From positions 98,003 through 162,002 of the forward strand of contig JAFUEH010000009.1 of NCBI GenBank assembly GCA_017463985.1: a DNA stretch of 64,000 nucleotides. The letters run 5' to 3'. The position numbers and the translations under genes are program-made. Origin of the DNA: Eubacterium sp. (GTDB lineage: Bacteria > Bacillota > Clostridia > Oscillospirales > Acutalibacteraceae). The stretch's first letter is position 1. The number at the start of each line of letters is the position of its first letter. The notes under the pieces were generated by a model, which was not told the DNA's origin, did no database searches, and saw nothing but the letters and a program-made list of their open reading frames with translations. Shown here piece after piece: positions 18,611 to 53,754 of this stretch.

Positions 18611-18687
18611 GGCTTTATAGCTCAGTTGGCTAGAGCATTCGGTTCATACCCGGAGTGTCACTGGTTCGAATCCAGTTAAAGCCACCA
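18611..18687 (+). tRNA. tRNA-Met (anticodon CAT)
   Basis: A 77-nt cloverleaf with encoded CCA. The acceptor GGCTTTA pairs with TAAAGCC; the anticodon loop is TTCATAC. The first base pair is G-C and the anticodon stem is not the three-GC initiator type, so this is an elongator tRNA. A lysidine-modified tRNA-Ile2 cannot be excluded from the anticodon alone. Confidence 0.95.
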
Positions 18688-18689
18688 GC

Positions 18690-18764
18690 GGCCCGGTGGT
18701 CAAGCGGTTAAGACACCGCCCTTTCACGGCGGTAACACGGGTTCAAATCCCGTCCGGGTCACCA
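18690..18764 (+). tRNA. tRNA-Glu (anticodon TTC)
   Basis: A 75-nt cloverleaf with encoded CCA; acceptor GGCCCGG, anticodon loop CTTTCAC within a CCGCC/GGCGG stem, T-loop GGTTCAAAT. It is 2 nt after tRNA-Met and shares its promoter. Confidence 0.96.
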
Positions 18765-34210: not shown

Positions 34211-34235
34211 GGTGTTGCATGAACCATACAAACAT

Positions 34236-34362
34236 TTCTCTCATCCGGACTCATGTCGTCTGACAAATACCGTCGGTTACGGAATTGCACCGTATCAGTC
34301 CCTGCCTTCACAGGGAGTCGTGGACTGTTACCACCGGTGGGGAATCGCACCCCGCCCCGAAA
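34236..34362 (-). ncRNA. FMN riboswitch (RFN element)
   Basis: On the minus strand the conserved blocks occur in order: TTCGGGGCGGGGTGCGATTC, CCCACCGGTGGTAACAGTCC, the variable P3/P4 arms, ATTCCGTAACCGACGGTA and AGTCCGGATGAGAGA. This is the full RFN consensus. It sits directly upstream of a terminator and ribU, so high FMN should shut off riboflavin uptake. Confidence 0.96.
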
Positions 34363-34508
34363 TATTTTGTTGATAGTGTTCTATCAAGGCTATTATATTC
34401 CTCTGCTGCCGTTTGTCAACAATTTTTCAGTAAATAAACATATTTTACCATTCTGTCCATTAATTTATGACAATTGTTCGTCAAAATGACCAAAAAGCGC
34501 CGGAAAAA

Positions 34509-45034: not shown

Positions 45035-46549
45035 TTATTCGGCAACCGTGAAGCCCTCGGCCTCGCGCTTGGCAGCCAGCTCCTCTTGTACCTTCTTCTT
45101 GTTTTCGCCCGAAAGCTTATAGAAGAACATCGGAATCGAGCACAGCAGCATACTGATACCGGGAACCAAGGAAACCAGTGAGAACATCGCAAAGTTCTGC
45201 GTTCTTGCCAACTCGGTCGCCGGACGGATCGCCTCGTTGCTGAGCATTTCCTCCGGCTTGAAGCCGATGAACATATACATCACGATAATACCGCAGGTAG
45301 AAAACGCCGAACCGAACTTATTGATCAGGCCCTGGCAGGCAGAGCCCAGCGCGTTGTCGCGGTGGCCGGTTTTCAGCTCCATATAGTCCAAACAGTCATA
45401 GATCATCGCAATGGACAGCGTGTTGATAACGCCGAGCGGAATGCACTGAATCAGAATGAACGGAATACAGGCGTACAGATTATTGGTAAACCAGCCGATC
45501 AGCGTCGTAAAGATACTGGCGACAAAGCCGGCCAGGCAGGTTGTGATGAGCAGCTTTTTATAATCGAATTTCTGCATCAGCTTCGGCATCAGGATCGTCG
45601 CGCCGAACATACCGACGACGGCGCACATCTGGAAAATCGTCTTAACGGTAGAAACCGACTTCGTCACGGCCTCGTTGATCGCCTCCTGTGAGGTAAGCGT
45701 TGAAAGATCCGGTCCAATGTAAAACGCATAACGGGCAACGTGGATCGCCGCAGCCTGTACCATGTACCGGCCGCTGGAAAGGATACCCATGGCAATAATG
45801 AGCATCAGCGGCTTGCAGGTGAACACGCGCTTGAGTGTAGACGGCTCGCCGGGGATCTTTTTCGTCGGCGGCGGCACGGCTCTTTCTTTAATATGGAAAT
45901 AGGAATTCACATACAGCACGGTTCCGATCACGACCACGGTAATCGCCAGTACGCGGTACGTGGTTTTGGTGTATTCCAGACCCTCGTTCGTACCGACAAA
46001 CAGCGGCAGAATAAACGGCAGTACGAAGAAAATAACCTCCGGCAGGGCAGAGCCGACGGAATTCCAAATCTTTGAGAAGGACACTACGTGGCTGCGCTCC
46101 TCGTTATTCGGCGTGATCACGTTCGGGATGCTCCAGAAGGGTACGTCCGCCATCGTATAGATCATACCCCATGCAACATAAACGATTGCGGAATAGATCA
46201 TCAGCTGCTTTTGCTGCAGGCTGGGGCTGATATACATCAATACGGTCAGGATCGCAATAAACGGTGCGGCAAAAAGAATATACGGCTTCAGCTTGCCCCA
46301 CTTCGTTTCGTGACGGTCAACGATTACACCCATGAGCGGGTCATTGATCGCGTCCCAAACACGGGCGAGCAGCATCAACAGCAACACAAACGCAAGCGGC
46401 AGCTGCAGCACGTTAACATAATAGTCGCTGATGTAGCTGGACATCATGGCATAGATCATGCCCTGACCCATGGCGCCGAGGGAAAACATCCACAGCTCCT
46501 TCTTGCCAACATAGGTCTGAGCAGAAAGACCGGTAGCTTTGGTAGACAT
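45035..46549 (-). CDS. GPH-family sugar:cation symporter (MFS)
   Basis: A 504-residue transporter with about 12 helices. Family motifs are SYISDYYVNVLQLP, ARVWDAINDPLMGVIVDRHETKWGKLKPYI (the GPH signature region), DVPFWSIPNVITPNNEER and ALGSACQGLINKFGSA. GPH members import glycosides, pentosides or hexuronides with Na+ or H+. No glycoside hydrolase is adjacent, so the substrate is open. Has its own promoter. Confidence 0.92.
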   Translation of the reverse strand: MSTKATGLSAQTYVGKKELWMFSLGAMGQGMIYAMMSSYISDYYVNVLQLPLAFVLLLMLLARVWDAINDPLMGVIVDRHETKWGKLKPYILFAAPFIAILTVLMYISPSLQQKQLMIYSAIVYVAWGMIYTMADVPFWSIPNVITPNNEERSHVVSFSKIWNSVGSALPEVIFFVLPFILPLFVGTNEGLEYTKTTYRVLAITVVVIGTVLYVNSYFHIKERAVPPPTKKIPGEPSTLKRVFTCKPLMLIIAMGILSSGRYMVQAAAIHVARYAFYIGPDLSTLTSQEAINEAVTKSVSTVKTIFQMCAVVGMFGATILMPKLMQKFDYKKLLITTCLAGFVASIFTTLIGWFTNNLYACIPFILIQCIPLGVINTLSIAMIYDCLDYMELKTGHRDNALGSACQGLINKFGSAFSTCGIIVMYMFIGFKPEEMLSNEAIRPATELARTQNFAMFSLVSLVPGISMLLCSIPMFFYKLSGENKKKVQEELAAKREAEGFTVAE

Positions 46550-46620: not shown

Positions 46621-47598
46621 TTATACAGTAAAGGTAACGGCCGCGCCGGGGTTGCTGTCGTCGATATATTTTCCTTCCCCGAACACGCGCGCACGCACGG
46701 TGATCCGGTTACCGTGCACGGTCAATACTAAGCCCTGTGCAAAGGCGTCGCAGTCGCCATGGTTGATCACGCCGACCGTCGGCACATTGATCGCATGAAA
46801 CCGCCCGATCTTTTCATAAAGATAACGGCTGGTGCCGTAATGCAGGTGACCGGTAATATACACGGCGTTACCGTACTTCTCCAAAATAACGCGCAGCTTG
46901 TCGGATTCTCTGCCGACGGAGCCGCGCCAGTCGCCGCGGCCAAGAAAGGTTTTCGGCAGGCCGTTGGTGTATTTGAGCGGCTGATGGTTCACCACAAACA
47001 CCGGCTTGTCCGGATCCGCCGCAGCCAGCGCCTCGTCCAGTTTACACAGCTGCGCGTCGCTCAGATAGGAGGCCTCAAAGCTGCTTCTGTCTGCGCCGAG
47101 CAGCACAAAGCGGCAGCCCTTCCTGTCCACGGTACGGAAATAGCCCTCCCCCTTCAGACGAACGGCACCTTGCACGCTGCCTAAAAACCGGTCAAACACA
47201 CGCACCTGATTGCGGTATTTGCGCAGACGGATGTCGTGGTTCCCCGGCACCGCCAGCACGCTGTCAACACGCTGCGCCACGGTTTTCAGCAAATCAGACA
47301 GCAGCTTATATTCACAGACCATGCCGTATTCCGTGAGATCGCCGGCAAGAATCAGGGCGTCGTAACGCCCCTTAGCACGTCGGACGTCCTTACAGGCGCA
47401 TGCCACACGCGCCGCACGCAGCGGCGACAGCGCCGAGATCTGCGGATCGGCCCAAACGAGCAGGTTCAGGTCGGCCGATTCGTCCGGCTGCAGCGGCTCT
47501 GCGGCAGCATACGGCGGCAGCGCATCGCTGCGCAGCACTTTGCCAAGCGCCTTGACCATCTGCTTATAGATTATTTTTGTCAGCTTTTTTCTCATCAT
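46621..47598 (-). CDS. Calcineurin-like metallophosphoesterase
   Basis: A 325-residue metal-dependent phosphoesterase. Motifs in order are WADPQI (motif I; the usual D-x-H has Gln in place of His), LAGDLTE, VPGNHDIR, VNHQPL and ITGHLHYG. There is no signal peptide, but a basic, helical N-terminus may contact membrane or nucleic acid. Two ATGs (47598, 47595) start it 3 nt after the DUF218 gene, so it is co-transcribed with the AAA+ protease locus upstream. Substrate unknown. Confidence 0.88.
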   Translation of the reverse strand: MMRKKLTKIIYKQMVKALGKVLRSDALPPYAAAEPLQPDESADLNLLVWADPQISALSPLRAARVACACKDVRRAKGRYDALILAGDLTEYGMVCEYKLLSDLLKTVAQRVDSVLAVPGNHDIRLRKYRNQVRVFDRFLGSVQGAVRLKGEGYFRTVDRKGCRFVLLGADRSSFEASYLSDAQLCKLDEALAAADPDKPVFVVNHQPLKYTNGLPKTFLGRGDWRGSVGRESDKLRVILEKYGNAVYITGHLHYGTSRYLYEKIGRFHAINVPTVGVINHGDCDAFAQGLVLTVHGNRITVRARVFGEGKYIDDSNPGAAVTFTV

Positions 47599-47601
47599 TT
47601 T

Positions 47602-48063
47602 TCACCAAATTATGCCAAAAAAGGCTAAGGGCCGCAAAAAGCACTCACGAATTCTGAACGAAAGAGAGTGCGCACCGTTCGGCGCTGCCAGCGGCTGATA
47701 ATTGACACCTGCCTTACGGCAGATCCGGCAGCTGCGCCAGATATGAAACCGGTTGGTGACAAAGGTCACCTGTGCGTCCGGCTCTACCAACTGCTTCGTA
47801 TATTCAAAATTCTGCAGCGTGGTCAGCGCCTGCTCCTCCAGGATAATTCTGTCCTCTGCTACGCCGCGCGCCAGCAAGGCCTTTTTCATGATCTGCGCCT
47901 CGCTCAGGCGCTGCGTTTCGCCCTTGATGCCGCCGCTGACAACGGCCTTGGCGGACGGGTGAGCCGCCAAAAACGCTGCGCCCGTCTCTATTCTTTCTGT
48001 TAGCAGCGGACTGGGCAGGTCGCCCTCGATCGGTCCGCCTAAAATCAAAACGTATTCCGCCAT
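47602..48063 (-). CDS. DUF218 / YdcF-like protein
   Basis: A 153-residue protein of the SanA/ElyC/YdcF family: LILGGPIEGDLPSPLLTERIETG, AVVSGGIKGE, SEAQIMKKALLARGV, EEQALTTLQNFEYTK and VTNRFHIWRS. It lacks the N-terminal membrane helix of SanA-type members, so it is probably cytosolic. Related proteins affect envelope integrity; YdcF binds S-adenosylmethionine. It starts 3 nt after the Clp-FtsH gene and is tightly linked to it. Confidence 0.88.
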   Translation of the reverse strand: MAEYVLILGGPIEGDLPSPLLTERIETGAAFLAAHPSAKAVVSGGIKGETQRLSEAQIMKKALLARGVAEDRIILEEQALTTLQNFEYTKQLVEPDAQVTFVTNRFHIWRSCRICRKAGVNYQPLAAPNGAHSLSFRIRECFLRPLAFFGIIW

Positions 48064-48066
48064 CGC

Positions 48067-51000
48067 TTACGCATCCTCTTCTTCGGCGGTGAACAGTGCA
48101 TCAATTTCCTCACCGTTCAGGTGCGTTTTTTCCATCAGCACTGCCACAAACCGATCCAACAGCGCTCGGTTTTCCGCGATCAGCTGCTTTGCGTTCTCCA
48201 GCTCTTCCTCCAGCAGTGCATTCACTGCGGACCGGATCTCCGGCACCAGTGAGCCGTCACGGCTGTACGGATTAGTGACTGCCATGCCGAAATCCTTGCT
48301 CATACCGTAGCAACAGAGCATATAGGCCGCGGTGCGTGTAGCGTTCTGCAGGTCACTGCTCGGTCCGGTGGTAACGCCGTCGATATCGCCGTAATACACC
48401 AGCTCCGCCGCCCTGCCGCCGAGCGCAATACGCACCGAATTCAGCAGGTCGGTTTTGGAATAGCTGCCCTTGTTATCCTCCGTATCACGCAGCACATAAC
48501 CGCCGTAATCACCGCGGGACACCACCGTAATATAGGACGGCTTTTCACCGGTTTTCCAGCAGACAAAGGCATGACCGGCCTCATGACGCGCCGTGCGCAG
48601 GAGGCTCTCCTCACTCCAGGTATGCTCCTCGCCGCTCTTAAACTCCTCAAACGCATCCTCAAAGGCCTCGTCGTCCACCGCTTCACGGCGTTGACGCAGG
48701 GCGGCGCGCTTTGCCATTTCGATCACGGACGCCAGCTGCGCCAGGCTCATGCCGACGGAGCGCTGCGCCAGATTTTTATAGAGTGTATCGGAGAGAGAGA
48801 ACAGCTTATCGCGCGTCATCAGGCGCAGGTATTGCTGCCGCTCCTCCTGATCCGGCAGATCAATCTTAATGCGCCTGTCAAAGCGCCGCAAAAAGGCAGG
48901 ATCCAAGCCTCTGCCCTCGCCGGTGCTTTCCGACTCTACGCCAAAATTGGTGGCGGCCAGCACAAAAACAGGGCGCTTTTTATCAACATGGAACCCATCC
49001 ATTTCTGTCAGCAGTGCATTCAGCACCTGCTCCTCCACGTGCGTAAATTCCGAGCCGGTACGCTTCTTCGCGATCGCGTCGATCTCATCGATAAAGATGA
49101 CCGCCGGCGCATACTTGCGCGCCTTGGCAAACAGCCGGTGAACACTGGCCGGACTTTCGCCTACATATTGCTTGAGGAAGCTGCCGCCGTCCGCTGCAAT
49201 AAAGGTTACGCCGGATTCGCCGGCCAACGCCTTGGCAAGCATGGTTTTGCCGGTTCCCGGAGGGCCGTACAGCAGGATGCCTTTTGGTGCGCTCACGCCG
49301 CTCGACAGGAATTTTTTCGGATTTTTCAAAAAGTCCACAAAATATTGCAGCTCGTCCTTCGCGTCCTTGGCGCCGATCACATCATCAAAGCGCACATTCG
49401 GCTTGGAGGTATCGCTCAGAATATCTGCCGCGTCCTCCGAATCTACCGCTGTTTCCAGCTTAAAATCGAACAGCTCAACAACAGCAGCACCGTCGGCAGC
49501 GTAATATTGACCCGTTTCGTAGGTGACTAGCTTACCGGCGCGCGCCAGCTCGTTCATGCTCTCCTGCCAGTGTGCATTTTCGCTGATCGTCTTCATCGCA
49601 GCGTCAAACGCCATGCTTTCCGTTGACAGCGGCACGATGTCGCGAATGCCGCGTCGGAAGAGCGAAATCCGCTCCTCTGTATCATAGAACTCCTCGTCTG
49701 TCTGCAAAAAGTATACCGGAACCTCCGGGAACTTTTCCTTGATAGCAAGGAAGAAATCCCTGCCGACAGAGATCGTGTCCTCGTCGTTCATATATTTTGT
49801 ATCCGTCTGTGCGCCGTATCCAAAATCGATCAGCGCCAGCTTATAATCATTGGTATACAGGCTTTCCAGCGCGGCATCGATATCCGTATAGCCGTCAAAC
49901 GAAACGTCGAGGCACTGCGCCGTGCAGCGACGGCAGACCTCCTTGGCCGCAAACACCAGCACGCGCGGCACGTCCTCGTTTTTGAACAGCTTGCGAATCG
50001 CGTCATCCTTCTCCGGTACTACGGCATTCACGCGGATACCGGTCGGCGCCGGTGTGCCGTCCGTTCTGCCCAGCAGGCGATACAGCTCATACAGCTCAGT
50101 ATTCACAAAGCTTTCTGCTCTGGCGCGGATCGTGCGCGCGTCTGCACGGCCGCCCTCCGCAAACAGCAGTGCGGTATAAACATTTTCGTCCACATCAATC
50201 GACAGACCCAGCGCCTTGCGCGTATTCTCTGTCTGCTTTTCGATCTCGGTTTTGGCAATGGTGCGCAGGTTATGCGCCTCTATGTAATTGAACATCACCA
50301 CATTGCCTGCATCAAAGCGCGAGCAGATGGCCGGCGGAAAATAGGCTTCGCCGCGCCGGTCGGTATCTGTTCGCAGCGCATTCATAATGACCTTGCGCGA
50401 TACACCGGAAAAGTCTGTCGTGCCGTAATCCTCATACAGATTTCTGCCGGCATTGGTGGTAAAGATCAGGATCGTGTCCTTAAAGGAAACGCCTTTGCTG
50501 CCGCCCAGCCGACCGGCATCCAGTACCTGCAGGAAGGTCTGGATTACCTCCGGATGCGCCTTTTCCAGCTCGTCAAACAGGATTACACTCTGGGGATTGC
50601 GCTCTACATAGCGCTGCAGCGTATCGTCAATGCGCTTGCCGCTGTATTCCGTCATGTCAAAACGGGTATACGGCAGCGCCAGCAGCTTGGCGGCACTTTC
50701 GGCAAGATAGGTTTTACCGACGCCGGAGGGACCGGCAAACAGGAAGGTTGCCTTCGGGCGCACACGCTCGCTGTCGGTCAGCGCTGTGTATTCGCCGCGG
50801 AACAGACCGGTGGTCAGCACGTCGATCGCATGATTTTGGCCAAACACGGTCTGCAACAGGCTGTCACGGATGGCGTTCACCCGTTTCACCAACCGACTGA
50901 TTGGGTCGCCGCCGTCATCGCCGTCAGGCTCCGGCGGCGCGGCAGGCGGTGCAGCCGGTTCGCTCTCCTTGCCGTCGTAGGCCTCCACCTGTGCGCCGAT

Positions 51001-51519
51001 CCAGCTAAAGGGGCTGTCGGTCTCCTTTGGTGCAGCCTCCTTTTTTTCGTCTGTGCCTTCAAAGGCGGACAGCTGTTCAGACAGCCACGAAAGGCCCTTC
51101 TTTTCCTCTTGCTTCGGCGCGGCCTTCTGGGCGTCCAGACAGGATTTAATATTTTCGTTCGGGGCGTTCACGATCATGGACAGCACGGTGTCCAATCGGA
51201 TCTGCGTGCCTTCCTCGGCCTCTCTTCCGGCACGGCGCATAATTTCGTTGATATAGGTCTGCTGCACGGCCTCGTTCGCCTGCGTATCCTTCGTGGCTTG
51301 CTGCAGCTGCGAGCGGGCATCGGCCGCCAACGGAAAATACTGCTTGATCAAACGAGCGGTATTAGACAGCTCGCTGTCACGGCTGCTTTCCTGATTTTCT
51401 GTCACTAATGACAGGGTTGCGATGAGCAGCTTTTCGGCCGTCAGGACGCCCTTTGTACCCAGCTCCAGCTGGCGCGCCTCCATGATGGCGATTTCTAACA
51501 TTTTGCTGGTGTTGATCAT
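48067..51519 (-). CDS. Clp-type AAA+ / receiver-like / FtsH-M41 fusion protease
   Basis: A 1150-residue protein with an architecture I have not seen described. Residues 1-125: ClpN-like helices (ARQLELGTKGVLTAEKLLIA). Residues 215-500: ClpB D2-type AAA_2 with Walker A GPSGVGKT (263-270), Walker B VILFDELEKAHP (312-323) and sensor TTNAG. Residues 517-650: a receiver-like alpha/beta domain (RVLVFAAKEV, LALIDFGYG) lacking the acidic pair. Residues 705-960: an FtsH AAA+ with GPPGTGKT (752-759), pore loop QYVGES, FIDEIDAIAKKR and LRRFDRRI. Residues 965-1150: the M41 peptidase with HEAGH (979-983) and third ligand Asp in TTGPSSDLQNAT (about 1056). No transmembrane helix is present, unlike FtsH. Both ATPase sites and the zinc site look intact. 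Confidence 0.92.
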   Translation of the reverse strand: MINTSKMLEIAIMEARQLELGTKGVLTAEKLLIATLSLVTENQESSRDSELSNTARLIKQYFPLAADARSQLQQATKDTQANEAVQQTYINEIMRRAGREAEEGTQIRLDTVLSMIVNAPNENIKSCLDAQKAAPKQEEKKGLSWLSEQLSAFEGTDEKKEAAPKETDSPFSWIGAQVEAYDGKESEPAAPPAAPPEPDGDDGGDPISRLVKRVNAIRDSLLQTVFGQNHAIDVLTTGLFRGEYTALTDSERVRPKATFLFAGPSGVGKTYLAESAAKLLALPYTRFDMTEYSGKRIDDTLQRYVERNPQSVILFDELEKAHPEVIQTFLQVLDAGRLGGSKGVSFKDTILIFTTNAGRNLYEDYGTTDFSGVSRKVIMNALRTDTDRRGEAYFPPAICSRFDAGNVVMFNYIEAHNLRTIAKTEIEKQTENTRKALGLSIDVDENVYTALLFAEGGRADARTIRARAESFVNTELYELYRLLGRTDGTPAPTGIRVNAVVPEKDDAIRKLFKNEDVPRVLVFAAKEVCRRCTAQCLDVSFDGYTDIDAALESLYTNDYKLALIDFGYGAQTDTKYMNDEDTISVGRDFFLAIKEKFPEVPVYFLQTDEEFYDTEERISLFRRGIRDIVPLSTESMAFDAAMKTISENAHWQESMNELARAGKLVTYETGQYYAADGAAVVELFDFKLETAVDSEDAADILSDTSKPNVRFDDVIGAKDAKDELQYFVDFLKNPKKFLSSGVSAPKGILLYGPPGTGKTMLAKALAGESGVTFIAADGGSFLKQYVGESPASVHRLFAKARKYAPAVIFIDEIDAIAKKRTGSEFTHVEEQVLNALLTEMDGFHVDKKRPVFVLAATNFGVESESTGEGRGLDPAFLRRFDRRIKIDLPDQEERQQYLRLMTRDKLFSLSDTLYKNLAQRSVGMSLAQLASVIEMAKRAALRQRREAVDDEAFEDAFEEFKSGEEHTWSEESLLRTARHEAGHAFVCWKTGEKPSYITVVSRGDYGGYVLRDTEDNKGSYSKTDLLNSVRIALGGRAAELVYYGDIDGVTTGPSSDLQNATRTAAYMLCCYGMSKDFGMAVTNPYSRDGSLVPEIRSAVNALLEEELENAKQLIAENRALLDRFVAVLMEKTHLNGEEIDALFTAEEEDA

Positions 51520-51568
51520 GGTTTACGGTTCTCCTTCTCCTGTTTTCAATGCTATAAGAAAAGCGTAA

Positions 51569-51593
51569 AAGGCTGCCTTTCACCGGCAGCCTT
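51569..51593 (-). terminator. Hairpin between YbjN-like gene and the AAA+ protease gene
   Basis: AAGGCTGCC/GGCAGCCTT 9-bp stem with a 7-nt loop, then TTTTACGCTTTTC on the minus strand. The T run is interrupted, so it may only partly stop transcription and set protease dosage. Confidence 0.6.
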
Positions 51594-51604
51594 CGGCTAT
51601 CATA

Positions 51605-52105
51605 TTAATTTTCTTGCGGTGCTAACAACTCGGCAACGCTGAGCTTGCCGGTGTTAATCAAATAAAACACATCGTTATAATGGTCGATGATTCTCGTTGC
51701 GGTCTGCACCATATAGTGGAAAATGCCGCCGTCGATACGGTCGTTGTCGTAAGAGACAATCATTTTGAACCCGATCTGATTATTTTCCCGATCCAGATCA
51801 AAGCAGCCGTCAACCAATCCGGAGGAGGCATGGCAAACCGCCACCGCCAGCGAGGCCAGCTTGGTGCTGTCCGGCTCCACCGGTATCAGCGAATACAGAT
51901 GCAAAATATTGTTGTTCTCCCTCACTGAGATCTTGATCAGCATCGGGAAATCCTCTCCGCTGATCTTGAAGGAATAGGCCATCATATCCGGATCTTCGCC
52001 CAGCATTTCAAATTTTGCATCATTGTCGTTACGGTTATTGAGATACCGACCGAGCGCACTATAAACATCCAACGCCGCTTGGTGTCTGTTATTATCGTTA
52101 ATCAT
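51605..52105 (-). CDS. YbjN-like (type III secretion chaperone fold) protein, paralogue 2
   Basis: A 166-residue cytosolic acidic protein. KISGEDFPMLIKISVRENNNILHLYSLIP and AVAVCHASSGLVDGCFDLDRENNQIGFKMIVSYD match the YbjN pattern: two beta strands, an 'ENNNILHLYSLIP' strand and a helix-rich C-terminus. It is a diverged paralogue of the upstream gene (shared ENNNxLxLxSxxP, AxCHxxSxxxxGxFDxD). YbjN proteins resemble secretion chaperones and bind protein partners. Located between the sigma module and the AAA+ protease, it is a candidate adaptor (inference). Confidence 0.8.
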   Translation of the reverse strand: MINDNNRHQAALDVYSALGRYLNNRNDNDAKFEMLGEDPDMMAYSFKISGEDFPMLIKISVRENNNILHLYSLIPVEPDSTKLASLAVAVCHASSGLVDGCFDLDRENNQIGFKMIVSYDNDRIDGGIFHYMVQTATRIIDHYNDVFYLINTGKLSVAELLAPQEN

Positions 52106-52116
52106 TCCAAACCCTC

Positions 52117-52578
52117 CTATGAAACCTGTTCCGTAAACTGATCCAGCGTAATATACCCCTTGGACAGGGCAAACAGCTTGTCATTCAGGTCGTCGATCAT
52201 GCTGTTGGCAATACGCATCATATACCGCAGTGCGCCGGCGCCAAGCTCACCGTCACCGACAAAGTTATTCATTCTGAAGGTGATTTCGCCGGTTTTCACG
52301 TCAAAATCAAAGTACCCGTTGATATAGGTGCTGTTGATATGGCAGATCGCCAGCGCCATCTCCACGCGCTTATCCTCCGGTACCTTAAAGGGAAAGAAGG
52401 AAAGCAGGCGCAGCACGTTATTGTTTTCGTTAATCGTGATAAAAATTTCGACCGGCAGGTCGTCGCTCTCCATCTTATAGCGAACAAATTCTTTTTCGTC
52501 ATTGCGCTCGTAGTGCCAGTCGAAGCTGTCCAGCAGCGCACATATTTTTACAAAAGTGTTATGTGAGGTTGAAGACAT
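52117..52578 (-). CDS. YbjN-like (type III secretion chaperone fold) protein, paralogue 1
   Basis: A 153-residue protein with the same pattern as its neighbour: YKMESDDLPVEIFITINENNNVLRLLSFFP, LAICHINSTYINGYFDFDVKTGEITFRM and GALRYMMRIANSMIDDLNDKLFAL. It is separated from paralogue 2 by 11 nt. A consensus promoter lies just upstream inside the zf-HC2 gene, so the YbjN pair can be expressed apart from the sigma factor. The ATG follows AAGGAG. Confidence 0.82.
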   Translation of the reverse strand: MSSTSHNTFVKICALLDSFDWHYERNDEKEFVRYKMESDDLPVEIFITINENNNVLRLLSFFPFKVPEDKRVEMALAICHINSTYINGYFDFDVKTGEITFRMNNFVGDGELGAGALRYMMRIANSMIDDLNDKLFALSKGYITLDQFTEQVS

Positions 52579-52605
52579 ATAAATTTCTCCTTTCAGTTTA
52601 ATTTT

Positions 52606-52634
52606 ATTATAACTTACCGATCTCTGCTTGTCAA
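52606..52634 (-). promoter_or_regulatory. Internal consensus promoter ahead of the YbjN pair
   Basis: Minus strand: TTGACA (52634-52629), 17-bp spacer, TATAAT (52611-52606). It overlaps the last codons of the zf-HC2 gene. It is a perfect housekeeping promoter, not the pattern expected for an ECF sigma target. Confidence 0.85.
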
Positions 52635-52877
52635 TAAACGGTCGTCTCCGTCGCGCAGGGCAAAGCCGTCCTCTAACCGGCTTTCCTTAACGACCGGTGT
52701 GATGCCGTCACGCACCGCCTCTTTTATTTCCTGCAGTGCCTCATAGGTGCGGCGGCAATGCTCACAGGTAACCAGATGGCGGTTCACCTCCGCTGCCAGC
52801 GCCAGCAGCGTTTTGTCTGCCCGATCGGCATAAGCAAGCCTTGCCAGGTTTTCAGTAGAAATATGCTTTTCGATCAT
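52614..52877 (-). CDS. zf-HC2 anti-sigma-like protein
   Basis: An 87-residue protein with an N-terminal zinc finger of the anti-sigma type, H-x3-C-x2-C (NRHLVTCEHCRRTYEAL), followed by a short hydrophilic tail. No membrane helix is present, so it would be a soluble anti-sigma factor, possibly redox- or partner-controlled. The start lies inside the sigma gene (26-nt overlap), the usual arrangement for sigma/anti-sigma pairs. Confidence 0.82.
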   Translation of the reverse strand: MIEKHISTENLARLAYADRADKTLLALAAEVNRHLVTCEHCRRTYEALQEIKEAVRDGITPVVKESRLEDGFALRDGDDRLLTSRDR

Positions 52878-53685
52878 TGTTAATCAACTCCTTAAAGCGA
52901 CCCTTGATCCAGTTAGAGCTGTCCGTAATGGCGCGCGGCGTCATGTCAAACAGTCGGTTTTCGTACACGATTCCGTCCTTTTCCTCCGCCAGACGTGCGC
53001 GCAGCGTCGTGAAGATCCTGTCCGGCAGCGCCGTGTCCAGTGTGCGCTCCAGCTCGACCCTGGCGGCGGCGTAGATCACGCCGAGCCGTTTGCCGTGCAG
53101 CTGCTCAGCAATATAAGCAGTCTTGTTTTTAATAATACCGGCATAGTCGGCTAAAATGATTTTGTTGAAAAGGAAGGCAAGCATTTTGTCCGGCGCGGTG
53201 TTAACGGAAAGCAGCGCCTCCAGCACCGCGAACAGATGCGGCAGGTCTTCCTCCTCCAGCAGCAACAGCTCCCGCTGCTCCTGCGGAATATCGCGTTCCT
53301 CGCCGTCCTCACCGTCGAGCGCGCTGAGTGATATTTTGCGCCGCTGGGCCGTCTTGGCATCAGCGCCGTTGTCCGGCAAGGTCTTTTCCTCACGGTAATA
53401 GCTGCGCCAGAAATCGTTGATCCGCCGTTCCGCCAGCGTGCGCAGCCAGCTGTTACGCTGCGACGGACTCAACGTTTCGCTGTTCACAACAAACGACGCC
53501 AGATTCTGCAGCACAGCAATACAGATCTCCTGCAGCACGTCCTCTCGCTCTGTCTCCGGCACGCCATGCCTGGCGATCAGCGGTCTTACGTCAGCCAGCA
53601 CCGTCTCAAAAATCCGGTCATAGCCGGCGCCGCTGTACACCGCGGCCTTGACGGCCTGATAATTGGTTTGGGTTCCCCAGTTCAT
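52852..53685 (-). CDS. Sigma-70 family (ECF-like) RNA polymerase sigma factor
   Basis: A 277-residue sigma-like protein. Residues 15-100 resemble region 2 (ETEREDVLQEICIAVLQNL, SWLRTLAERRINDFWRSYYRE). A C-terminal segment with a helix-turn-helix-like pattern (IIKNKTAYIAEQLHGKRLGVIYAAARVELE) may be region 4. A roughly 70-residue acidic insert (DGEDGEERDIPQEQRELLLLEEED) separates them, and an extra C-terminal extension ends the protein, making it longer than a typical ECF factor. ATG at 53685 follows GGAGGAAAG. Confidence 0.78.
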   Translation of the reverse strand: MNWGTQTNYQAVKAAVYSGAGYDRIFETVLADVRPLIARHGVPETEREDVLQEICIAVLQNLASFVVNSETLSPSQRNSWLRTLAERRINDFWRSYYREEKTLPDNGADAKTAQRRKISLSALDGEDGEERDIPQEQRELLLLEEEDLPHLFAVLEALLSVNTAPDKMLAFLFNKIILADYAGIIKNKTAYIAEQLHGKRLGVIYAAARVELERTLDTALPDRIFTTLRARLAEEKDGIVYENRLFDMTPRAITDSSNWIKGRFKELINNDRKAYFY

Positions 53686-53725: not shown

Positions 53726-53754
53726 ATTATAATAGAAGAACCGGCATATTGCAA
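53726..53754 (-). promoter_or_regulatory. Promoter of the sigma/anti-sigma operon
   Basis: Minus strand: TTGCAA (53754-53749), 17-bp spacer, TATAAT (53731-53726), 41 bp before the ATG. Confidence 0.8.

Follow-up and report, generated by a model that had tools for sequence, protein, structure and literature searches.

Why should a sigma-like factor, an anti-sigma-like protein and two YbjN proteins be encoded beside a protease that joins a Clp-type and an FtsH-type AAA+ ring in one chain? The question is raised by a locus on the minus strand of a 64,000-nucleotide stretch of an Eubacterium sp. genome (GenBank assembly GCA_017463985.1, contig JAFUEH010000009.1, positions 98,003 to 162,002), the whole of which is called the window here. 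An earlier note on this DNA had placed five adjacent genes there and proposed that they form a new regulated-proteolysis system with a role in proteostasis. All five genes were confirmed at positions 53685-48067, in the order ECF (extracytoplasmic function)-like sigma factor, HC2 protein, YbjN1, YbjN2 and Clp-FtsH fusion protease, and a new proteolysis system centred on the fusion was supported by the comparisons described below. We take the locus to represent one form of a system that gut Clostridia carry as an accessory, in which a signal gates proteolysis and the parts can be mixed and matched. Its most likely concern is phage defence or genetic conflict, and we regard this reading as nearly, if not quite, probable. 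Neither the fusion architecture nor the gene set was found described in the open-licence literature searched, among the matches listed, and as far as our searches reach the locus type is real, recurrent and undescribed. The genes and the parts of the fusion lie as follows.

52852 to 53685, minus strand: divergent ECF-like sigma factor with its own C-terminal domain (277 aa)
52614 to 52877, minus strand: soluble zf-HC2/ZAS-type anti-sigma-like protein (HC2, 87 aa)
52117 to 52578, minus strand: YbjN paralogue 1 (153 aa; Pfam PF10722)
51605 to 52105, minus strand: YbjN paralogue 2 (166 aa; assigned by family model)
48067 to 51519, minus strand: fusion protease, whole (1150 aa)
51085 to 51519, minus strand: fusion residues 1-145, ClpA-like N-domain (profile of 37 N-termini)
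50161 to 50859, minus strand: fusion residues ~221-453, Clp ATPase module of the second-ring type (Pfam AAA_2, E 1.7e-35)
49420 to 50007, minus strand: fusion residues 505-700, receiver-like (probable pseudo-receiver) domain and linker (weak profile matches, Asp565)
48067 to 49416, minus strand: fusion residues 702-1150, FtsH AAA ring and M41 zinc peptidase (TIGR01241, E 1.1e-104)

All domain assignments rest on profile comparisons. The fusion matched the Pfam families AAA_2, AAA and Peptidase_M41, and the same three were matched in 31 of 31 fusions scanned. The NCBIfam model for ClpA aligned with residues 213-452 at 131 bits against a cut-off of 993, the protein having a single Clp module instead of two, and the FtsH model TIGR01241 scored 351.4 bits, below the NCBIfam equivalog cut-off of 600. 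A profile built from 37 N-termini (the window's and those of 36 relatives) matched the N-domain of ClpA (1mbu, 1k6k) at E 2.5e-5; the 25 families listed for the 31 fusions do not include Pfam Clp_N. In ClpA, the N-domain is the docking part for the adaptor ClpS.

Both catalytic parts are strongly conserved among 70 aligned fusions, which are mostly 40-47% identical to that of the window (33% in L023). The Walker A and B motifs and two arginines of the Clp ring are invariant (70/70), as are the HEAGH motif and the aspartate that provides the third ligand (70/70); indeed, every Walker and M41 residue tested was the same in all 70, and Arg882 of the FtsH ring was kept in 68. No 19-residue hydrophobic segment was found in the window's fusion (maximum 1.08), so that the membrane anchor of FtsH is absent; at a threshold of 1.6, 66 of the 70 fusions remained below and four carried a segment above it. 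The earlier description of a Clp-receiver-FtsH fusion held for the Clp and FtsH/M41 parts, and the middle domain is receiver-like only: eight of the 11 solved chains returned up to E 10 were response regulators, at weak E-values of 0.095-0.83, the other three being other or designed proteins. Asp565 is kept in 69 of 70 fusions and the consensus shows neither a conserved acidic pair nor a conserved lysine, and because of this pattern and the weak profile matches we consider the domain to be probably a pseudo-receiver. A separate 725-aa frame is the best AAA match in the genome and presumably represents its own canonical FtsH.

How widely does the fusion occur? Relatives of its diagnostic region are encoded in 241 stretches (one genome per species), of which the best 80 were kept, 79 of them from Clostridia-type organisms. 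These 80, the window and three further loci (L018, L022 and L023) make up the 84 loci compared here, in which L026 and L035 carry identical fusions; all were annotated in six frames, given that longer antisense frames can hide genes in open reading frame calls. Among 60 relatives, the fusion was found in seven, namely the window's own genome, three of 36 other genomes of the same genus and three of 23 from other families of the order. In a draw of 391 genomes from the class (own included), a full-length match was present in the window's genome and in G405, with a distant relative in G433; some match was obtained in 313 of the 391, and beyond the top three nearly all of those listed were to a 40-residue linker shared with ordinary FtsH and were left uncounted. 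The fusion is thus a real, accessory and sporadic gene family of gut Clostridia. A phage or plasmid origin was rejected, since no relative turned up in any of the 28 viral pattern matches, no plasmid match was obtained, and the 10 listed of 293 phage records match the FtsH part only, with no record covering 80%. In L043, L101 and L104, a gene near the fusion, which by its resemblance we take to encode a conjugative coupling protein, hints at mobile elements.

This sporadic distribution bears on an explanation by general proteostasis, in which the sigma factor would sense protein or envelope stress, the YbjN proteins would serve as chaperones or adaptors, and the protease would clear damaged proteins with no link to conflict. 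An AAA+ protease with a ClpA-like N-domain and YbjN partners would suit such a role, as would the housekeeping-type promoter match that precedes YbjN1. However, a gene carried by three of 36 other genomes of the genus, and in the class draw by only the window's genome, G405 and, distantly, G433, is accessory and rare, and the genome holds in the 725-aa frame another protein that resembles its own FtsH.

What, then, accompanies the fusion? Four modules recur within 4 kb of it: YbjN (43 of the 84 loci), a membrane Rossmann/RyR-like family (29), a Card1/Can2-type CARF nuclease (22) and a RyR-domain protein (21). At least one of them lies within 4 kb in 71 of 84 loci, and less than 300 nt away on the same strand in 66. 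Where at least 4 kb of sequence was available on both sides, 39 of 43 loci hold a module, the exceptions being L065, L070, L077 and L101. The co-occurrence that the earlier note had proposed to check was borne out in part: the fusion is seldom without any recurrent partner, but it is widely found without the sigma and HC2 genes, which were not found in 77 of 84 loci, and the five genes do not form a fixed unit. On a quick tree of the fusions, the partner state changed at least 15 times for YbjN, 10 for CARF, 14 for the membrane family and 15 for RyR (61, 49, 50 and 49 rows, respectively, with absences that may partly reflect contig ends). So many changes point to a constant core with swapped modules. 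The available part of PMC9503650 gives as hallmarks of conflict systems that they evolve rapidly and exchange modules around a conserved core, and it places YbjN-related chaperones in such systems.

We give almost no credence to chance neighbours or assembly artefacts with no system behind them. Uncultured bacteria are, by title, the source of the assemblies that hold the 80 kept loci, and many of the contigs are short, but the same partners recur beside divergent fusions (33-47% identical to the window's), in several families, in another order and in trans, and with this recurrence in other genomes a grouping by chance is ruled out.

Of the recurrent partners, YbjN is the most frequent, and its place beside the fusion, as seen in the earlier note, is supported. 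YbjN1 matches Pfam YbjN (PF10722) at 44.0 bits (cut-off 22); YbjN2 has no Pfam YbjN hit and fits the model of the locus-type YbjN family at E 4e-47, being itself one of the rows of that model. The two paralogues are 24% identical. A YbjN gene lies on the same strand within 300 nt of the fusion in 35 of 84 loci and at least two copies are present in 26; the YbjN counts leave out a divergent copy in L023 (Pfam E 2e-14). Among relatives, the family was detected in six of seven genomes with the fusion versus two of 53 without it (one of the two weakly; Fisher test, 3.8e-6), and seven of 11 hits adjoin the fusion. Such adjacency could also be expected if the protease were toxic and the YbjN proteins held it inhibited, like antitoxins, until infection removed them. 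This guarded-effector arrangement seems improbable to us, since no YbjN lies within 4 kb of the fusion in 41 of 84 loci (10 of these have less than 1 kb on one side and 17 less than 4 kb, which could hide one), and since YbjN is present without the fusion in G002. YbjN was the sole recognised partner in 30 of 84 loci, which would agree with general proteostasis.

The alternative partners are harder to place in a housekeeping role. Can1, Can2 and Card1 are described in the accessible text of PMC11229360 as nucleases activated by cyclic tetra-adenylate (cA4). The CARF proteins of related loci, 17 of which were aligned of the 22 found, share invariant G89-G90, N325/E326/D328 and S341/C342/K343 (17/17), and their profile matches VC1899 (E 5e-8) and Can2 (E 1.5e-6); Pfam Card1_endonuc was below its cut-off in both CARF proteins scanned. 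From these motifs and their homology to solved members, they are predicted to be Card1/Can2-type nucleases. The family was found in four of seven relatives with the fusion (one weakly) versus two of 53 without it (p 0.001), partly in trans. Card1/Can2-type genes were also seen in G052 (L140, L142), G056 (L139), G028 (L141) and G011 (L143), the fusion being absent from the stretch fetched.

At least two membrane-like segments near the N-terminus are present in 32 of 33 members of the membrane Rossmann/RyR-like family, in which Pfam TrkA_N was matched in three of 23 and RyR in one of 23; its RyR-like end is called from a shared conserved motif and weak cross-matches of both family models. Phage RyR-domain proteins degrade or sequester cyclic ADP-ribose immune signals, according to the part of PMC13232231 available to us. 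For a wider view of the neighbours, Pfam and PADLOC surveys covered 139 of 223 listed near proteins (hand-picked by nearness and strand) and 139 of 152 far ones, with 25 families listed for each. TIR_2 was the commonest Pfam family near the fusion (seven of 139 proteins, in the five loci L025, L036, L043, L053 and L057) and was absent from the 139 far proteins in a phmmer search (p 0.014 by protein), while ADP_ribosyl_GH and NUDIX families were each found in two of 139 near proteins. That the alternative partners are CARF nucleases and RyR proteins, with TIR proteins in a few loci, suggests nucleotide signalling and conflict; such partners would be odd company for a housekeeping protease, and we hold the plain proteostasis role put forward in the earlier note to be unlikely. 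Two further kinds of neighbour were observed. A matrixin-like HExxH protein paired with a weakly TerB-like protein lies downstream of the fusion in L017:4549-6115 (the same locus as L049), L031, L039 and L047. Giant proteins of 1731-1823 aa adjoin CARF or sigma/HC2 genes: that of L176 (L176:9357-14828) has a transglutaminase-like domain, and those upstream of CARF in L029 and L057 form one family with membrane-like N-termini.

Do CARF partners imply type III CRISPR? Cas10 was sought in the genomes of 20 of the 22 CARF loci (L022 was left out and L035 comes from the same genome as L026) and models exceeded their cut-offs in one of 20, as read against controls in which they passed in only three and one of 14 genomes. 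A role as type III CRISPR accessory was rejected for most loci on these counts, with a reservation for sub-cut-off Csm1 matches that is taken up below.

If nucleotide signals form the input in other loci, what is the place of the sigma/HC2 pair in the window? The sigma gene starts at ATG 53685, preceded by a good ribosome site (GGAGGAAAG), and stops at 52852, its 3' end overlapping the HC2 gene (52877-52614) by 26 nt. The sigma protein scores below the curated cut-offs of both Pfam Sigma70_r2 (21.6 bits, cut-off 24, E 2e-4) and NCBIfam sigma70-ECF (25.4 bits, cut-off 42.9, E 9e-6). It was matched by a profile of six sigma-like proteins from other fusion loci, the window's being left out, at E 5e-5 (probability 67%, 199 columns), despite being only 15-18% identical to them. 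That profile returned five solved chains up to E 10, four of the ECF type (SigW 0.046, SigL 0.49, SigC 0.81 and another 1.4) and one not. Region 4 has no Pfam match; the proteins have a conserved C-terminal region of their own that ends in an ISDW-type motif. HC2 has no Pfam zf-HC2 match and no transmembrane-like segment, and reaches 21.4 bits (cut-off 62.5, E 2e-4) with an RsrA-type anti-sigma model, while its H-x3-C-x2-C motif is invariant in seven of seven proteins. With scores below the curated cut-offs, the sigma-70-like and zf-HC2 calls of the earlier note stand on motif, gene overlap and family comparison. The overlap and co-occurrence of the two genes make HC2 the putative anti-sigma factor of its neighbour.

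A six-member model detected the sigma protein in seven of 84 loci (the window, L022, L030, L034, L074, L075 and L090), and HC2 was found in all seven and in no other. The reading frames overlap in six of the seven (not in L022; the HC2 start of L034 is uncertain), and over 4 kb separates the pair from the fusion in L034 and L090. L075, the locus of G405 (identical in sequence), belongs to another order of the class and has the gene order of the window, sigma-HC2-YbjN-YbjN-fusion, although its fusion is not the nearest to that of the window on the fusion tree. The sigma family was found in 11 of 295 genomes of the order (the window's own and G038 included), and in the nine other stretches fetched HC2 follows in nine of nine (at E ~1e-3 in L178 and L179). 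The pair is therefore no accident of one genome. Two promoter matches accompany these genes.

53726 to 53754, minus strand: sigma-70-type promoter match (10/12) before the sigma gene (consensus match only)
52606 to 52634, minus strand: sigma-70-type promoter match (12/12, TTGACA-17-TATAAT) before YbjN1, at the end of the HC2 gene (consensus match only)

The consensus scan found 16 matches in the region against 6.4 expected. Because the 12/12 match lies directly before YbjN1, sigma/HC2 and YbjN-YbjN-fusion may be two separate, putative transcription units.

The nine stretches bear on whether the protease acts on this pair at all. Sigma and HC2 could be an independent module that responds to a signal of its own (zinc or thiol redox, sensed at the H-x3-C-x2-C site) and drives the operon, with the protease never acting on HC2. 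HC2 is soluble, carries the ZAS motif and resembles RsrA-type sensors, the pair has its own promoter match, and the fusion is present in only one of the nine stretches (L171, the L030 locus, where it stands with the membrane Rossmann/RyR-like protein). Five of the nine nevertheless adjoin the fusion, its partners or another AAA ATPase, which hints at a coupling to AAA machines: besides L171, these are L172 (CARF and an AAA ATPase), L173 and L175 (an AAA ATPase or look-alike and YbjN) and L176 (the membrane Rossmann/RyR-like protein), and the fusion of locus L040 may lie further along the contig of L176. None of the partner set was seen beside the pair in L174, L177, L178 (only 4 kb long) and L179. 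We consider an independent sigma/HC2 module rather unlikely. Whether or not the fusion is there, the pair is often accompanied by AAA machines and the same sensors. In L172 and L173 these machines (659 and 665 aa) are AAA ATPases with AAA_lid_6; a protein of 659-671 aa was seen in the place of the protease beside sigma/HC2, with CARF or YbjN, at L172:4583-6562, L173:5853-7850 and L175:2303-4318. In the sigma/HC2/AAA/YbjN set of L173, a CAP12/Pycsar-type TIR gene (L173:9820-11211) lies two genes upstream of sigma.

Where does the system end? As described in the earlier note, the fusion is followed at 3-nt gaps by a DUF218 gene and then a metallophosphoesterase gene. These and a GPH-type sugar transporter gene occupy window positions 46621-48063 and 45035-46549, with the cassette directly upstream at a 3-nt gap. 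Homologues of the phosphoesterase (48-55% identity) occur in eight fusion-free genomes of the genus; at E 1e-20 it was matched in 13 of 41 genomes (own included) and in none of the fusion-bearing G008, G028 and G029. Of six stretches fetched, L155 has DUF218, phosphoesterase and transporter in the order of the window, L154 and L159 have phosphoesterase and transporter together with DUF218 reversed beside them, L158 has the same two together but DUF218 6 kb off, and L156 and L157 have the phosphoesterase alone. The three genes are together in the fusion-free genome G015 and partly so in G002, G011 and G036. The proposal that DUF218 and the metallophosphoesterase belong to the locus was consequently rejected; they are resident chromosomal genes, before which the protease cassette stands like an insertion.

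Is this a known system under another form? A close parallel is the Calp system of type III CRISPR, with the SAVED-Lon protease CalpL, the anti-sigma factor CalpT and the sigma factor CalpS, as set out in the parts of PMC12751052 and PMC11229360 at hand. Both combine a protease, an anti-sigma factor and a dedicated sigma factor in one locus, and related fusion loci hold Can2/Card1-type CARF proteins. Here, however, the protease is a Clp-FtsH fusion, neither SAVED nor Lon is among the 25 of 45 Pfam families listed or the NCBIfam matches, Cas10 is unmatched in the window's genome and rare, as counted above, in CARF-bearing ones, the partners include YbjN, RyR and membrane Rossmann proteins, and the sigma factor is optional. 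The locus would work like the Calp system and is not counted as a member of it, since the fusion gave neither a SAVED nor a Lon match and the window's genome gave none to Cas10.

FtsH-containing MoxR-vWA ternary conflict systems also have an FtsH-type AAA ring in a two-AAA protein and a modular, conflict-like gene set, the FtsH-type domain being the first and inactive in the available text (PMC7159879). In the fusion, by contrast, the first AAA module belongs to the Clp type, its active residues are invariant, and the protein goes on to an M41 peptidase; the 25 of 144 neighbour families listed include neither MoxR nor vWA. Canonical membrane FtsH (TIGR01241) shares the AAA-M41 core and HEAGH, whereas the fusion lacks the membrane anchor and adds a ClpA-like N-domain, a Clp ring and the receiver-like domain. 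With ClpA/ClpC it shares the N-domain, a second-ring-type Clp module and co-encoded candidate adaptors, but it has one Clp ring and a fused M41 peptidase, not ClpP. ADP-ribose-centred conflict systems include TY-chaperones, one group of which has been unified with YbjN (PMC9503650, as far as available). They resemble the fusion loci in having YbjN-superfamily proteins in a variable, conflict-like neighbourhood, and ADP_ribosyl_GH and NUDIX also occur near the fusion; they differ in that an AAA protease goes unmentioned in the accessible main text, with no occurrences of FtsH or AAA+ (PMC9503650).

How might the parts work together? In the signal-gated proteolysis system that we favour, the hub would be a soluble double-ring AAA+ protease whose ClpA-like N-domain docks adaptors. 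The Clp ring would start unfolding, the pseudo-receiver would couple or gate the rings, and the FtsH ring and M41 peptidase would degrade, both rings threading clients into the M41 chamber; the domains are observed, and this working order is what they suggest. The YbjN pair would probably bind unfolded or marked clients and hand them to the N-domain, an adaptor idea that gains weight from the match of that domain to ClpA. In the window's version, the zinc anti-sigma protein HC2 would hold the dedicated sigma factor until the activated protease removed it, and the freed sigma factor would switch on the response. In other loci, the input would come from Card1/Can2-type CARF nucleases or RyR-domain proteins, taken as nucleotide-signal sensors. 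More specifically, and slightly more tentatively, these loci could be a new immune-type class in which Clp-FtsH is the common executioner or relay of interchangeable nucleotide sensors (CARF, RyR, membrane Rossmann/RyR-like and TIR), with YbjN adaptors and, in some loci including that of the window, a sigma/anti-sigma switch. As part of that same tentative proposal, CARF would answer a non-CRISPR signal, since no Cas10 exceeded the cut-off in 19 of 20 CARF-bearing genomes.

Several observations weigh against this account. The window's genome has no CARF-family match and no Cas10 match and its locus no RyR or TIR gene, so that the nucleotide and defence parts are carried over from relatives. 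The window's fusion is about 15 residues short where Clp pore loop 1 would be expected (50617-50640, residues ~294-301; seven residues versus 22 in 67 of 70 fusions), to that extent alone among the 70; the pore loop is identified from its position, and if its region has been lost the unfolding activity of this Clp ring is uncertain. In two of the seven fusion-bearing relatives (G052 and G057) YbjN lies on another contig, and in only one (G038) of the four with CARF does that gene adjoin the fusion. Sigma/HC2 is present in only seven of 84 loci, so freeing a sigma factor is not the general output. The TIR enrichment rests on five loci and a hand-picked near set, and the 48 PADLOC families near the fusion versus 16 far from it are mostly of one protein each, with a far control that is not clean. 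Finally, nine of 20 CARF-bearing genomes have sub-cut-off Csm1 matches, several to the first 100 residues only; together with the few passes among control genomes, these mean that Cas10 may be present in some CARF-bearing genomes.

Elsewhere in the window, an FMN (flavin mononucleotide) riboswitch (34229-34368, minus strand, 95.8 bits) and tandem tRNA-Met and tRNA-Glu genes (18611-18764, plus strand) were observed.

The fusion unites in a single soluble chain two of the machines with which bacteria degrade proteins, and none of the family models or literature searched showed this arrangement. Its neighbourhoods indicate that modular signalling in common gut Clostridia can be organised around a protease as the part that stays constant. 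To our knowledge, the function of YbjN proteins is unclear in most bacteria. If gating by nucleotides proves true, the system would give these proteins a testable role as adaptors, would prompt one to ask which signal Card1-type nucleases respond to where no Cas10 is recognised, and would extend signal-activated proteolysis beyond CRISPR.

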